Source of the DNA: Gammaproteobacteria bacterium
Lineage (GTDB): Bacteria > Pseudomonadota > Gammaproteobacteria > GCA-001735895
DNA length: 64,000 nucleotides
Reading direction: 5' to 3'
Assembly (NCBI GenBank): GCA_029862005.1
Contig: JAOTYD010000002.1
Span: forward strand, 186,001 to 250,000
Position numbers and translations under genes: made by a program. This document shows, piece by piece, positions 867 through 18,177 of this stretch. The notes beneath the pieces were generated by a model that made no database searches, was not told the DNA's origin, and saw only the letters and a program-made list of their open reading frames with translations. Every line of letters starts with the position of its first letter. Position 1 is the stretch's first letter.

Positions 867-2213
867 ATGGACAAAACAGCAATTTATCTTGAGCGTTTCA
901 TGAACGGAGTAAAGAAACGCAATCCCGGCGAGTCGGAATTTCACCAGGCAGTATCCGAAGTCGCAAACACGATTTTCCCTTACATCGCAGACAAACCCAT
1001 TTATCATAAGATGCAGATCATGGAACGCATGGCGGAACCCGATCGGGTCATCATGTTCCGCGTGCCTTGGACCGATGACAAGGGCAATATCCGTAACCAG
1101 CGCGGTTACAGGGTGCAATTCAACAACTCGATCGGACCCTATAAGGGAGGCCTGCGCTTCCATCCCTCGGTTAACCTGAGCGTGCTCAAGTTTCTCGGCT
1201 ACGAACAGACTTTTAAAAACAGCCTTACCGGCCTGCCCATGGGGGGTGCCAAGGGTGGTTCCGATTTCAACCCCAAGGGCAAAACAGACAACGAGGTGAT
1301 GCGATTCTGTCAATCGTTTATGGTCGAACTGCATCGCCATATCGGCGAGGATACCGATGTACCGGCGGGTGATATCGGCGTTGGCGCCCGTGAAATCGGT
1401 TATCTGTTCGGCCAGTACAAGCGCATCGAAAATCGATTTGTTGGTGTACTCACGGGTAAAGGCATCGAGTTTGGCGGCAGCAAGATCCGCACCGAGGCAA
1501 CCGGCTACGGCGCCGTCTACTTCATGGAGAATATGCTGCACCGCGTCGGTGACAGCATCGAGGGCAAGACCGTGGCGGTTTCGGGTTCCGGAAATGTCGC
1601 CACTTATGCGGTTGAAAAGGTGAACCACCTCGGTGGCAAGGTGGTCACGCTGTCGGATTCTTCAGGTTTCGTCCATGACCCGGAAGGAATTGACGCCAAT
1701 AGGCTGGAATATGTCCTCGATCTTAAAAATGTGCGGCGCGGTCGGATCAAGGAATACGCCGACGAGTTCAACTCTGCTACCTTCCACGAGGGCAGGCCGT
1801 GGGTGGTTCCCTGTGATCTCGCTCTGCCCTGTGCGACCCAGAATGAAATTAACGAAGAGGAGGCCAAAACCCTGCTCAAGAACGGCTGTATCGGTGTTTC
1901 AGAAGGTGCCAATATGCCCACCGAACTCGCCGGCATCGATGCCTTCCAGCATGCCAAAATATTGTATGCGCCCAGCAAGGCGGCCAATGCCGGCGGTGTT
2001 GCGGTATCGGGCCTTGAGATGAGCCAGAACAGTAGCCGGGTATCCTGGAAAGAAGACGATCTCGATAATCTACTCAAGGAGACGATGCTCAACATCCACG
2101 AAAGTTGTGTCGAGTATGGCAACGAGGCAGGCCATGTAAATTATCTCGCCGGGGCAAACATTGCCGGTTTTGTCAAAGTCGCGGAGGCAATGCTCTCTTT
2201 TGGGCACACCTGA
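867..2213 (+). CDS. gdhA: NADP-specific glutamate dehydrogenase
   Basis: Catalyses the reversible reductive amination of 2-oxoglutarate with ammonia to glutamate, the low-affinity route of ammonium assimilation in the cytoplasm. The 448-residue length matches the hexameric short-form family. The glutamate/2-oxoglutarate binding region is visible (the 'GGLRFHPSVNLS' stretch and the 'GGAKGGSDFNPKGK' stretch with the catalytic lysine), followed by a Rossmann segment 'VAVSGSGNVA' for the cofactor. The ATG is preceded by a strong purine-rich Shine-Dalgarno (GAGGGGGAAG). It is monocistronic, with 183 bases of leader and a convergent rhomboid gene downstream. A long open frame on the opposite strand inside this gene is a codon-bias shadow. 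Confidence 0.97.
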   Translation: MDKTAIYLERFMNGVKKRNPGESEFHQAVSEVANTIFPYIADKPIYHKMQIMERMAEPDRVIMFRVPWTDDKGNIRNQRGYRVQFNNSIGPYKGGLRFHPSVNLSVLKFLGYEQTFKNSLTGLPMGGAKGGSDFNPKGKTDNEVMRFCQSFMVELHRHIGEDTDVPAGDIGVGAREIGYLFGQYKRIENRFVGVLTGKGIEFGGSKIRTEATGYGAVYFMENMLHRVGDSIEGKTVAVSGSGNVATYAVEKVNHLGGKVVTLSDSSGFVHDPEGIDANRLEYVLDLKNVRRGRIKEYADEFNSATFHEGRPWVVPCDLALPCATQNEINEEEAKTLLKNGCIGVSEGANMPTELAGIDAFQHAKILYAPSKAANAGGVAVSGLEMSQNSSRVSWKEDDLDNLLKETMLNIHESCVEYGNEAGHVNYLAGANIAGFVKVAEAMLSFGHT

Positions 2214-2271
2214 GGTCGGCGCGTTGTTATCGAAGTGCAAGGCGAGATTTTTAGCCGATAAAGCAGGGGCG

Positions 2272-3450
2272 CTACCTGGCCTTTTGTAGCAAGTGATTAA
2301 ACTGCTGCAGATTAACCAGCGCGCCATAGCGCTTGTCAGCGTCAACCAGCAGGTTTCTCGCAACTTCGGATTTACCAGTATCTAGCGCCATTTCTGCGTA
2401 AAACTCGACCCGGGAAATATCAGGCAGCATAAATTGTCTGCCCAGGCTCTGGCAGCGTTCGATAATATACAGTACGCGCCCGTAGCGTTGCTCCCGTTCC
2501 AGGATCTCTATCAGTAATCGCCCCACGCAACCAAGGGTCCGTGACGGTCCCCAGTCACATACCCGCTCGAATACTGGCTCGATTTCGGCAAAAGTAGTCT
2601 GTAAATCGTAGCGCGTTAAAAGTTCGATCACCGCCTCGCTATCTCGATGCGTTTTGACCATCTGATAGACATGCCCCATGAACCTGTCATGGTCACGCAC
2701 CCGTTCGCGCTCCGCAATCACTGGTGTAGTGGCTTTGTTATAGCGGTATGCCTCGGCTCGCGTTTTACCGTGACGTTGCTCGACATGCATGGCCTCGATT
2801 TCCTCGCCCAGTTCCGCCGCAGTCTCCTGCTTGCGCTGCTTCAGCCAGAGCAGGCCAAAAACGTAACCTGCAAAACCGCCTGCCACGTGAGCAACCAGGT
2901 TAATACCCCCGAAATCATCCGCGGTAAGCATCGTCCAGGCATCAATCCCGATGTATGCCACCGCCAGCATCCAGGCGGGCACGAAAATTGTTTTACCGAC
3001 TATAAACCAGAAAAAAACCCGAATCCGCGCATGCGGCATCAGGTAGGCTGCAAGTCCGATCATCCCCATAACCACACCTGAAAATCCCAGCGTGGGTACA
3101 GCTTCCAGACCCCCGACAACGGTCCACAACGAGTAACTTAAGCCGGTGACCAGGCTAACAAAGAGCATCAGGCCAACGTAACGCAGCGAGTTGCCAATCA
3201 GGATTTCGAGCGCTGGCGCAAACGCCATGAAAAATACCAGGTTACCGACCAGGTGCCAGAAACCCAGGTGCGCGAATGAAGCGCTGATCATCCTTAACGG
3301 ATTCCAGCTATCCGGATGATAGATCAGGATTTCAGTGATCGAAGTGCCAAGTTGCAGCGTATAAACCACCGCACATAGCGCGACCGCCGCATAACTAATG
3401 TATGGCGGCCGGCCAAGCGTCAACGCGGTGCTGTAAGGGAATATCAGCAT
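2272..3450 (-). CDS. Rhomboid family intramembrane serine protease with C-terminal cytosolic extension
   Basis: A membrane-embedded serine protease that would cleave transmembrane substrates. The N-terminal ~210 residues are a multi-span rhomboid core. Visible landmarks are the TM2 'WHLVGN' motif (His66, Asn70), the 'GFSG' motif with catalytic Ser124, and the partner His188 in 'LVAHVAGG'. The remaining ~180 residues are soluble, helical and rich in Arg/Glu, and look like degenerate TPR-type repeats; their role is unknown. The length (392) is long for a bacterial rhomboid because of this tail. It converges on gdhA with a short gap and is transcribed away from the cyclase gene. Substrate unknown. 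Confidence 0.92.
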   Translation of the reverse strand: MLIFPYSTALTLGRPPYISYAAVALCAVVYTLQLGTSITEILIYHPDSWNPLRMISASFAHLGFWHLVGNLVFFMAFAPALEILIGNSLRYVGLMLFVSLVTGLSYSLWTVVGGLEAVPTLGFSGVVMGMIGLAAYLMPHARIRVFFWFIVGKTIFVPAWMLAVAYIGIDAWTMLTADDFGGINLVAHVAGGFAGYVFGLLWLKQRKQETAAELGEEIEAMHVEQRHGKTRAEAYRYNKATTPVIAERERVRDHDRFMGHVYQMVKTHRDSEAVIELLTRYDLQTTFAEIEPVFERVCDWGPSRTLGCVGRLLIEILEREQRYGRVLYIIERCQSLGRQFMLPDISRVEFYAEMALDTGKSEVARNLLVDADKRYGALVNLQQFNHLLQKAR

Positions 3451-14437: not shown

Positions 14438-15358
14438 ATGCGTTGGCGTGGTCGACGGCAAAGCAGCAATATCCAGGATAAACGCGCAATGCGTGCTCCG
14501 CGAATGGCGCGCTTCGGCGCAGGTGGCGGCGGTCTCGTGCGTCTGCTACCACTCGTATTTCGGGTTCTGGGCTTCAAGGGAACGCTGATTGCACTCGCAG
14601 TACTGGTTGGATACGCTTATTTCACCGGTAACCTGCAGCAATTCCTGGGTGGTGGCGGATTTGAAGGCAGTCAAACCGGTGCTCCCGATCAACCGGTAAC
14701 ACAAAGCGCCACAGAGAAAGAGCTGGTCGAGTTTGTATCAACCGTACTTGCCGATACCGAGGACAGCTGGAATGGATTGTTCAAACAGGCCGGGGGGAAT
14801 TACCAGGAACCCAAGCTGGTCCTGTTTCGCGACGCGGTATCGACTGCCTGTGGTATCGGTTCGGCTCAGGTTGGCCCTTTCTATTGCCCGGGCGATCGCA
14901 AGGTCTATATCGACCTTAGCTTTTTTGATGAACTTAGAAGCCGGCTCGGAGCCCCTGGAGATTTTGCGCAAGCCTACGTCATTGCGCACGAAATCGGCCA
15001 TCATGTGCAGACCCTGATGGGTATTTCACAAAAAGTGCAACGGGCCAGACAATCGCTGAGCAAGGTCGAGGCGAATCGCATGTCGGTCAAACAGGAACTG
15101 CAGGCTGATTGTTTCGCGGGAATCTGGGCCCATGACGCCCGGCGTTCGCGACAAATCCTGGAATCGGGGGACATTGAGGAAGGACTCGCCGCGGCCAGTG
15201 CAATTGGTGACGATCGCCTGCAAAAGCAGGCGCGGGGTTATGTAACGCCCGATTCGTTTACCCATGGCAGCTCAAAGCAACGCGTGACCTGGTTCAGGAA
15301 GGGTCTGTCAGAAGGCACGCTGGCGGCATGCGATACGTTTGCCGCAGGTAAGCTATAG
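14438..15358 (+). CDS. Neutral zinc metallopeptidase (YpfJ-like), membrane-anchored
   Basis: A 306-residue single-pass membrane protein of the putative neutral zinc metallopeptidase family (YpfJ). An Arg-rich cytoplasmic N-terminus is followed by a hydrophobic helix around residues 35-65, a linker, and a periplasmic domain carrying 'VIAHEIGHHVQ' with HExxH at residues 184-188. The conserved 'ELQADCFAGIWAH' motif supplies the third ligand region. 'GPFYCPGDRKVYID' is also typical. Substrate unknown. The gene stands alone between DUF1508 and DUF1989. Confidence 0.92.
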   Translation: MRWRGRRQSSNIQDKRAMRAPRMARFGAGGGGLVRLLPLVFRVLGFKGTLIALAVLVGYAYFTGNLQQFLGGGGFEGSQTGAPDQPVTQSATEKELVEFVSTVLADTEDSWNGLFKQAGGNYQEPKLVLFRDAVSTACGIGSAQVGPFYCPGDRKVYIDLSFFDELRSRLGAPGDFAQAYVIAHEIGHHVQTLMGISQKVQRARQSLSKVEANRMSVKQELQADCFAGIWAHDARRSRQILESGDIEEGLAAASAIGDDRLQKQARGYVTPDSFTHGSSKQRVTWFRKGLSEGTLAACDTFAAGKL

Positions 15359-15382: not shown

Positions 15383-16243
15383 CTAGAGCCCGTGGGTGCC
15401 CGAATAAGCGCTGCGTTCGGGTGATGTCCAACCCTGCAGCGACTCCGCAACCGGTTCATAAATTTCCACCTTGAGCGGGTAACAGGCTGTGCTGTCATCG
15501 GAATGACTGCTGCCGCAGTCGCCGCCGGGACAGGTGGACAACGCGCCAAGTAAATCGATCTCGGCAAAGAACTCGATAAAATCGCCCGGGCGCACCGGGC
15601 TTGCCTTCATGAAATACTGGTGCGTATCACGCGTGAACCCGGTGCACATGAAAACATTCATGACGTCATGCACATGCAACTCGGCTTCGCCAGGCGGCAG
15701 GTTTCTCTCAGCAACAAGCGCCCGCGTCAGGTTTGAGTGACAACAATGGTGGTAATCGACGCCCTTGAGCATGTAGTTGGTATAGGGGTCGCAACGTGTA
15801 CCGATCACGTCATGCACCCCGCCACCGTCTTCATCCCAACCGTACCAGTCAAGCGTATCCCAGGTGATCGTCGCCATCGGGCGTAACCCTGGCAAGGTGC
15901 TCCACAGGCGATCGCCGGTACTGACGTGGGTAGCGTGCAGTTGCCGGGTTTTACCACTGAAGAAACGCTCGGAGAGATCATGGGCATTCCACAGATTGAG
16001 ATCACCCACCTGCGGACCCTCGATACTGATGATGCGGAAAAAGGAACCGGCCGGTACCTCGAAGCATGCGCCATCTCGTGGTGGTACCGTGATCTCGGCA
16101 ACCTTTTTAATCGTTGTACGCGCCTGTTGGTAAAGCACCAGGTTTGAATCGGGCAACTGGTCAACCTGGTAACAGACCAGGGGTTTTGCGGCACGACGCT
16201 CTGCCACATCTGTCGGGGGTTCATGGGGCGTAATTTGAGTCAT
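15383..16243 (-). CDS. DUF1989 / urea carboxylase-associated family protein
   Basis: A 286-residue protein of the DUF1989 family, whose members often sit near urea carboxylase or urea amidolyase genes, although none is present here. Visible features are 'GSFFRIISIEGPQVGDLNLWNAHD', 'LPGLRPMATITWDT', 'GTRCDPYTNYMLKG' with adjacent 'HHCCHSNLTRAL', and 'CTGFTRDTHQYFMKASP'. The His/Cys cluster suggests a metal site. The fold is thought to be cupin-like, with an unclear reaction. It is a single gene convergent with the zinc peptidase. Confidence 0.88.
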   Translation of the reverse strand: MTQITPHEPPTDVAERRAAKPLVCYQVDQLPDSNLVLYQQARTTIKKVAEITVPPRDGACFEVPAGSFFRIISIEGPQVGDLNLWNAHDLSERFFSGKTRQLHATHVSTGDRLWSTLPGLRPMATITWDTLDWYGWDEDGGGVHDVIGTRCDPYTNYMLKGVDYHHCCHSNLTRALVAERNLPPGEAELHVHDVMNVFMCTGFTRDTHQYFMKASPVRPGDFIEFFAEIDLLGALSTCPGGDCGSSHSDDSTACYPLKVEIYEPVAESLQGWTSPERSAYSGTHGL

Positions 16244-16320: not shown

Positions 16321-18177
16321 TCAATCCTGCAACACACCATTTGTAACGCCGTTGGCCTGCGCAAGCGCGCACTGCGCCGGGGTCAGTTCCAGGCTTTCGG
16401 GACGCGTGCGTCCCTGCATCAGGTTGGCAACGCCCTCGACGTGCTCACCGTTGTTGGCAATGACGTGGTAAAGCTCGTGCGCAAGCGCGATCCCGGCGTC
16501 ATCGACCCCGAGCATCAGCCACACACTCGGGGCCAGCCAGGGACGCATGCGCGTATTACCAGGACCGAAAGCCTCGCCATCAAATGCTGCCTGCATGCGG
16601 GTATCGCGCGCAAACACGACCGTAACGCGTTCACCGTCGACGGCTTCCAGCAGCGTGCGCGCGCTGCCGGTCGACAAATCACGCAGGTAGTCTTCTGCCT
16701 CGACAGCATAAATCGATACTTCGCCTGCAACGATGGCGCACTGCGCAAGGATTTCATATGCCTGCCGCACGGCCTGCCCTACCCGTTGTTGCACCCAGCG
16801 CGAATCGAGCACCACCACATCAAGCGCCAGGCCAAAGCCCGTCTCCGCCCGGGGCAGGTTGAGATCCGGGAGCGGTTGCTTAAGCACCGCTGCACCGGCG
16901 AGCGGGTCGGCGATATAACCGGTACTAACCCAATCGCGCGCACCCGGGCTGCTGTTGCCATAGCGGTTACGGAGTTCACGCTTGATATCGGTTGCATTCC
17001 ATTGCGGGTGGGTCGCCTTGAGTCGGGCGGCCAGCGCGGTCACACGCGCTACGGCATAGCTCGACCCGGAGACGCGTGTCTCGCTACCGGAGTAGTCAAG
17101 TGCCGCCAGTCGTTCCGCCGGTACCAGGTAGTCGACCGAAATCCGGCCCCAGTTGGTGCGTTCAGCGGGCTGCACGAAATCATCCGCGGATGTCACCACG
17201 ACCAGGTTATCCAGGTCGAGCGCGGCCGGGTAAACCGGGCGCTCGTCGATATCGCGCCCGTCGTTACCCGCCGAAACGATAAACAACATCTCTGGATGGT
17301 CGCGTGCAGCACGCTCGAAACTACCCCAGTCTGCGAGCCGGTTGCTGCCGAGCGGCATACCGAGGACGAAGACCTGGTTTTCCACGGCGTGCTCCACCAG
17401 TGCCTGCATGCGCGACATGTCGGGCCTCGGATAGCGATACGGCACCAGTTCGACAGCCGGTGCTTCGCGTAGCAGCAGCGACGCGGTGCGGGTACCATGG
17501 CGCTGCAGGAAGAACCCGGAATTAACCGGGTGCGCATCGTAGGGCAGATCATCCATGTCCCAGAAATCGTAACCAACCAGTTGCCCGTCAGCGTCCCTGG
17601 CGAGACGCTGATTGATTTCCGGTAATCGATAATTAACGCCTGAATCGACCATGCCGACCCGTACTGGTGTCGCATTACCCGGGTGTTTTAAAGGCTTGCC
17701 CGGTTTGCGCTCAAGCAGTTGCAGCGGTGGATTCAACCAGTCCGGTTCGCCCCTGGGTTCAAGCGCCACATCCAGCGTATCGATATTAATCGCCTGGCCG
17801 TGTTCGTTATAGTTTATCCTGCGCGCGACCTGCAAATCGCAATCAGCATCCAGGGACAACAGCACCAGCGGATCACCAAACTCGCCAAACAGCGAACTGA
17901 CAAAACGTTGCTGACCTGCACGTACAATAACATCGAGTTCTACCCGGGCATTGTCATCGACCTCGAATCGATAGCGCGTGCCCACCGTCGTTTCACGAAA
18001 CCTGATCTCGGACTCTACGACAGCGCCATTTGCAAATCCCGGCGCGGGCCCAGCGGTACCATCCCAGTCCTGGCAGGTTGCAGTCGCAAACTCGAGCAGG
18101 TTACCGGATTGCCACCCACTTGCTGCCACAGTGGCAAAAACCAGCAACAAGCCGACAGGAATGCGATGGAACTTCAT
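16321..18177 (-). CDS. Exported S8 subtilase with C-terminal HExxH metalloprotease-like domain
   Basis: A 618-residue protein starting with a signal peptide (basic start, hydrophobic core to about residue 20). After a ~150-residue N-terminal beta-rich region comes a subtilisin-type peptidase with Asp178 ('GMVDSGVNY'), His227 ('RHGTRTAS') and Ser373 ('SGSSYAVA'). The ~180-residue C-terminal part is unrelated and contains 'ALAHELYHVIANNGEHVE' with HExxH at 567-571, a further His at 579 and 'NLM' ending at 587. This recalls a zinc-protease site with a Met-turn, with two extra residues compared with the metzincin spacing. Whether both centres are active is not known. The leader implies secretion or a periplasmic location. 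Confidence 0.88.
   Translation of the reverse strand: MKFHRIPVGLLLVFATVAASGWQSGNLLEFATATCQDWDGTAGPAPGFANGAVVESEIRFRETTVGTRYRFEVDDNARVELDVIVRAGQQRFVSSLFGEFGDPLVLLSLDADCDLQVARRINYNEHGQAINIDTLDVALEPRGEPDWLNPPLQLLERKPGKPLKHPGNATPVRVGMVDSGVNYRLPEINQRLARDADGQLVGYDFWDMDDLPYDAHPVNSGFFLQRHGTRTASLLLREAPAVELVPYRYPRPDMSRMQALVEHAVENQVFVLGMPLGSNRLADWGSFERAARDHPEMLFIVSAGNDGRDIDERPVYPAALDLDNLVVVTSADDFVQPAERTNWGRISVDYLVPAERLAALDYSGSETRVSGSSYAVARVTALAARLKATHPQWNATDIKRELRNRYGNSSPGARDWVSTGYIADPLAGAAVLKQPLPDLNLPRAETGFGLALDVVVLDSRWVQQRVGQAVRQAYEILAQCAIVAGEVSIYAVEAEDYLRDLSTGSARTLLEAVDGERVTVVFARDTRMQAAFDGEAFGPGNTRMRPWLAPSVWLMLGVDDAGIALAHELYHVIANNGEHVEGVANLMQGRTRPESLELTPAQCALAQANGVTNGVLQD

Follow-up and report, generated by a model that had tools for sequence, protein, structure and literature searches.

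The adamalysin/reprolysin proteases of family M12B (snake venom metalloproteinases and the ADAM/ADAMTS proteins) and the fragilysins use the canonical HExxHxxGxxH spacing. Metzincins are defined by the motif HEXXHXXGXXH/D, in which a strictly conserved glycine stands three residues ahead of the third ligand (PMC3427221). An exception on record is mirolysin, a member of the M43 pappalysins, which has Asp231 at the canonical glycine position (PMC6949598), and in leishmanolysin (M8) 62 residues are inserted after the HExxH helix and before the third histidine (PMC4580569). Moreover, a protein with the metzincin fold and a full set of active-site residues may have no measurable activity, as reported for archaemetzincins (PMC3427221). 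In the open-access literature, which does not cover all journals, we found no report of a metzincin fused to an S8 subtilase.

The DNA analysed here (the window) is a stretch of 64,000 nucleotides from a gammaproteobacterial genome, and it contains a complete gene in which a subtilase domain is joined to a metzincin-like domain. The features of the gene are as follows.

16321–18177, minus strand: complete S8–metzincin-like fusion gene, 618 aa, stop codon included (ORF with ATG start)
18115–18177, minus strand: probable signal peptide, residues 1 to about 21, MKFHRIPVGLLLVFATVAASG (sequence features, by eye)
17698–18108, minus strand: all-beta N-terminal domain, residues 24–160 (full-length model, alignment)
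16891–17688, minus strand: S8 subtilase domain, residues 164–429 (PF00082, fold match)
17644–17646, minus strand: catalytic Asp178 of S8 (invariant, 53/53)
17497–17499, minus strand: catalytic His227 of S8 (invariant, 53/53)
17263–17265, minus strand: oxyanion-hole Asn305 of S8 (invariant, 53/53)
17059–17061, minus strand: catalytic Ser373 of S8 (invariant, 53/53)
16840–16890, minus strand: linker of variable length, residues about 430–446 (linker alignment)
16324–16839, minus strand: metzincin-like C-terminal domain, residues about 447–618 (model, Foldseek, structural alignment)
16738–16740, minus strand: C480, proposed disulfide partner of C603 (kept in 73/73 rows with a residue there)
16465–16479, minus strand: HELYH, residues 567–571, predicted active-site helix (sequence, model, alignment)
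16441–16443, minus strand: H579, proposed third zinc ligand (invariant in 74/74, not forced by the scan pattern)
16417–16425, minus strand: NLM, residues 585–587, proposed Met-turn (invariant in 74/74)
16369–16371, minus strand: C603, proposed disulfide partner of C480 (kept in 74/74)

The full-length protein is modelled with high confidence (pLDDT 92.5, pTM 0.90). Its N-terminus has a basic n-region, a hydrophobic core and small residues, with low pLDDT at residues 1–20, and we infer export to the periplasm or beyond. The all-beta domain that follows has no significant match in Pfam or PDB profile searches and carries two conserved cysteines, C35 and C113. The mature part of 44 of the 53 fused proteins contains exactly four cysteines, corresponding to C35, C113, C480 and C603, and two disulfides are predicted, C35–C113 in the N-terminal domain and C480–C603 in the C-terminal domain; the latter is proposed because both of its cysteines persist in members of the family that lack the subtilase. 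All three domains are under purifying selection, with dN/dS values of 0.06–0.26 across the N-terminal, S8 and C-terminal segments (Nei-Gojobori, close relatives).

An earlier note, made from the DNA letters, described a complete Asp/His/Ser subtilase, and this description holds. Residues 172–405 match PF00082 (E 3.7e-14, above the Pfam cut-off), and the S8 part of the full-length model (164–429) aligns with subtilases at Z 27–31, including PvSUB1 (Z 30.6) and deseasin MCP-01 (Z 30.0), with which it has the fold in common as well as the triad and the oxyanion asparagine. D178, H227, N305 and S373 are identical across all 53 aligned fused relatives, and the domain is thus a member of family S8 by profile, triad, oxyanion Asn and subtilisin fold. 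The protein differs from known S8 subtilases in that no recognised S8 propeptide family is among its Pfam matches, and in having a different all-beta N-terminal domain, itself without a Pfam match, and the metzincin-like domain at its C-terminus. A search with PADLOC gave one weak subtilase match (E 0.0036), and a defence role is not inferred.

The same note recognised a separate C-terminal domain with HELYH, a histidine eight residues further on and an NLM motif, and proposed both a structure prediction and a profile search against metzincin families. In the structure prediction the C-terminal domain (pLDDT 93.1, pTM 0.91) has the metzincin catalytic-domain fold by both Foldseek and VIA-align. 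The best 50 Foldseek matches in the PDB are all metzincins, among them adamalysins and fragilysin, and the top match is a snake venom metalloproteinase (1iag, E 5.3e-7, prob 1.00). The C-terminal part of the window protein matches nothing above cut-off in Pfam or NCBIfam, the 74-sequence set assembled from its relatives has no recognised metzincin family among its Pfam matches and, in NCBIfam, one weak fragilysin match below cut-off (E 0.031), and the PDB sequence-profile matches are to metzincins but weak. A profile–profile comparison with eight bacterial metzincins, in which HExxH aligns on HExxH, gave a probability of 91.6 (E 8.4e-7), and a second with 18 others, mostly larger reprolysins, was weak (probability 14.7).

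Three groups of known metzincins are the closest to this domain. The M43 pappalysins (ulilysin, mirolysin and PAPP-A) have the top structural alignment scores (Z 14.9–13.1, 2.6–3.3 Å, about 165 residues), with ulilysin at Z 14.9 (rmsd 2.6 Å, 164 residues aligned), mirolysin at 14.5 and PAPP-A at 13.4, but identity is 12–19%, the domain has no Pfam M43 match, its third histidine comes two residues later, and no cysteine-switch prosegment is seen. Family M12B and fragilysin provide the best Foldseek E-values and the sole PDB sequence-profile matches, none of them significant; the adamalysins score about 13–14 in VIA-align. Since VIA-align rows within 1 Z are tied, no single metzincin family is preferred. 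Leishmanolysin is a precedent for an insertion ahead of the third histidine, although its insertion is far larger and comes after the conserved glycine, whereas here two residues are added and the canonical glycine is missing.

The motif is strongly conserved. H579 lies eight residues past H571 and M587 eight residues past H579, as verified in the codons of the DNA, and HELYH sits within a predicted helix (561–574). The spacing HExxH-x7-H-x5-NLM fits all 74 aligned C-terminal domains, and H567, E568, H571, G577, H579, N541 and W553 are identical in all of them, as are N585, L586, M587, Q602 and C603. Because the scan pattern [AG]LAHELxH[VLM][LI] forced the LAHELxH segment, only positions outside it are independent evidence of conservation, and these include G577, H579 and NLM; in motif-independent searches the strong, complete matches were all motif-intact. 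Homologues without the histidines, named in the earlier note as grounds for abandoning the idea, did not appear, since the relatives retain all of them (H567, H571 and H579 in 74/74). Short motifs do arise by chance in single proteins, but conservation at fixed spacing in 74 of 74 sequences, together with the metzincin fold, refutes a chance arrangement of HELYH, histidine and NLM, to which we attach practically no probability.

The unusual histidine spacing that had been remarked upon is real when set against described metzincins. The strict consensus HExxHxxGxxH/D (PMC3427221) does not describe these proteins, whose spacing is two residues longer in 74/74, and for this reason the domain is not placed in a named metzincin family. 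The position of the canonical glycine is occupied by A, S, T, M, L or V in all 74, and a different glycine stands two residues before the third histidine. A control set was drawn from Reprolysin_4 and M43 searches within the same class (31 loci, 25 sequences listed); the longer spacing is present in none of the 25 HExxHxxGxxH/D metzincins, and none of the 31 loci has an S8 match by profile or motif test. The C-terminal domain belongs to a family that is conserved in proteobacteria and so far absent from the standard domain databases.

Predicted fold, motif and conservation together suggest that H567, H571 and H579 cluster around a metal. It is likely, in our judgement, that the gene encodes an exported protein made up of a beta domain at the N-terminus, a working subtilisin-type serine protease and, at the C-terminus, a zinc endopeptidase of metzincin fold, and the second of its two active sites is best read as a new metzincin variant. 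In this second site H567, H571 and H579 would coordinate the zinc, E568 would serve as general base, and M587 would lie in a Met-turn below the metal; the loop from H571 to the third ligand would exceed that of canonical metzincins by two residues and would lack the canonical glycine. The domain would thus not only share the metzincin fold but also work like a metzincin. Acting together, the two sites would cleave proteins or peptides that have been exported, and the serine site may in addition cut its own chain, trimming it or setting parts of it free; we infer this whole part of the scheme, from zinc binding and catalysis to the substrates and any crosstalk of the two sites.

The identity of the third ligand deserves comment, because H579 lies two residues past the canonical position and D525 and N541 are also highly conserved, so that an acidic residue, for example, could bind the zinc with H579 in a structural role. 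We regard this as very unlikely: H579 is invariant whereas D525 is replaced by G or N in 6 of 74 domains, and the proteins retrieved by the fold search are metzincins, in which this loop carries the third ligand. If H579 does bind zinc, metzincins are not strictly tied to the spacing by which textbooks define them, and annotation by motif overlooks an entire proteobacterial family.

The arrangement of the domains also raises the question of whether the protein is a zymogen in which the serine domain cuts the linker and thereby releases or activates the metzincin, the parts acting separately after processing. The linker does vary in length and sequence between two well-folded domains, and stand-alone relatives show that the metzincin is able to exist by itself, but the linker has no conserved cleavage site, no cysteine-switch residue is seen upstream of the C-terminal domain, and a pTM of 0.90 for the full-length model points to domains held in place, not loosely joined. 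Processing of this type seems unlikely to us but is to be taken seriously as a rival. With two putative activities retained in one polypeptide, the fusion would be a conserved, naturally occurring case of a serine protease and a metalloprotease in a single chain, and the claim of such a combination is supported by the S8 match, the predicted metzincin fold and the retained histidines.

The combination is unusual among proteases, as had been supposed, but it is not unique to the window genome, because it is conserved in 57 of 73 labelled rows of a tree of the C-terminal domains. In the genus of the window a close match is present in 17 of the 31 genomes searched, some of them as contig-end fragments, and the five other genomes of its family have no close match. 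Of 321 genomes in a class-wide sample, seven match the C-terminal domain convincingly, with the match in a long ORF in five of them and in a stand-alone ORF in two, and in a class sample of equal size the N-terminal and S8 query finds strong matches (E < 1e-70) only in the five long-form genomes. A scan of genome contigs identified 75 loci in Gamma- and Betaproteobacteria and in one alphaproteobacterial (Rhodobacteraceae) MAG, with taxa as given in record titles. A profile search of a phylum-wide sample of 398 genomes matched only the window's own genome, and searches for plasmid, phage and viral-contig relatives yielded none. Four loci (L035–L038) with E about 0.005 are without the motif and were set aside as chance matches.

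The tree comprises 74 C-terminal domains, of which 57 are fused, 16 are stand-alone and one (L094), which ends at a contig edge, is unlabelled. On the tree, the fused or stand-alone label has to change twice. A single group (support 99/97) holds 15 of the 16 stand-alone rows, and the remaining one, L018, sits on a long branch. The tree is unrooted and gives no order for fusion and single domain. The C-terminal domain thus also exists independently of S8, and the stand-alone members are secreted-type, mostly betaproteobacterial proteins with N-termini that by eye resemble signal peptides; in one of them (L099) there is almost nothing between this N-terminal segment and the domain. No separate S8 gene adjoins the stand-alone metzincins in the stretches examined, and the two stand-alone genomes of the class-wide sample (G049 and G122) have no match to the N-terminal and S8 parts at E ≤ 1e-12.

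These proteins bear on the possibility that the C-terminal domain has retained the fold of a metzincin, and perhaps its zinc, but cuts no protein and instead serves the serine protease as a module for binding or regulation. Its motif departs from the metzincin consensus, and archaemetzincins with a full motif had no detectable protease activity in tests (PMC3427221). However, the domain occurs alone in secreted proteins, with no S8 relative at threshold in the two such genomes checked, and the catalytic Glu, the proposed ligands and the Met are conserved in 74/74 (the HExxH part being imposed by the scan), which would not be needed for a purely structural role. We consider a non-cutting role rather unlikely and retain the zinc endopeptidase as the preferred reading. 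More tentatively, the subtilase could act in one chain with a metzincin of a new family whose zinc motif is relaxed to HExxH-x7-H, its serine site governing the metal site; several lineages of Gammaproteobacteria would have kept the two as a unit, and Betaproteobacteria the metzincin alone.

Several individual loci depart from the general pattern. Fused Granulosicoccus proteins (L030/L067, L056, L060 and L062) lack the N-terminal profile in ORFs long enough to judge, and may truly be without this domain; the ORFs of L014/L047 and L016/L050 end at a contig edge, and their N-terminal domain may simply lie off the contig. In L101 the fusion appears to be split into two overlapping ORFs (700–1620 and 1490–2569, plus strand), with the N-terminal and S8 parts in the preceding ORF, probably as a result of a frameshift in the MAG. 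One MAG contig with a stand-alone domain (L097) has a record titled Bordetella parapertussis, a name that may be misassigned.

The recurring neighbouring genes differ between lineages, and none is conserved in a way that would explain the function. In the window's genus the recurring neighbour is a carboxylase-associated-like gene, which in the window (15383–16243, minus strand) adjoins the fusion, recurs in nine related loci, and presumably encodes a DUF1989/urea carboxylase-associated protein. A RidA-like gene (named by eye) recurs at L077, L079, L080, L090, L101, L103, L106, L108 and L114; it is located just upstream of the fusion in several marine lineages, and in L103 about 13 bases separate its end from the fusion ORF. 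Recurring neighbours in Granulosicoccus include an MGMT-like gene and others, also named by eye. The window also contains, about 1 kb past the fusion's 3' end, a gene (14438–15358, plus strand) for another predicted zinc metallopeptidase, which has the motif HEIGHH and is similar to the YpfJ type. Two nearby Reprolysin_4 metzincin matches (L135 and L153) are also present in the window's own genome, at G000:C7:132751–133359 and 135338–135964.
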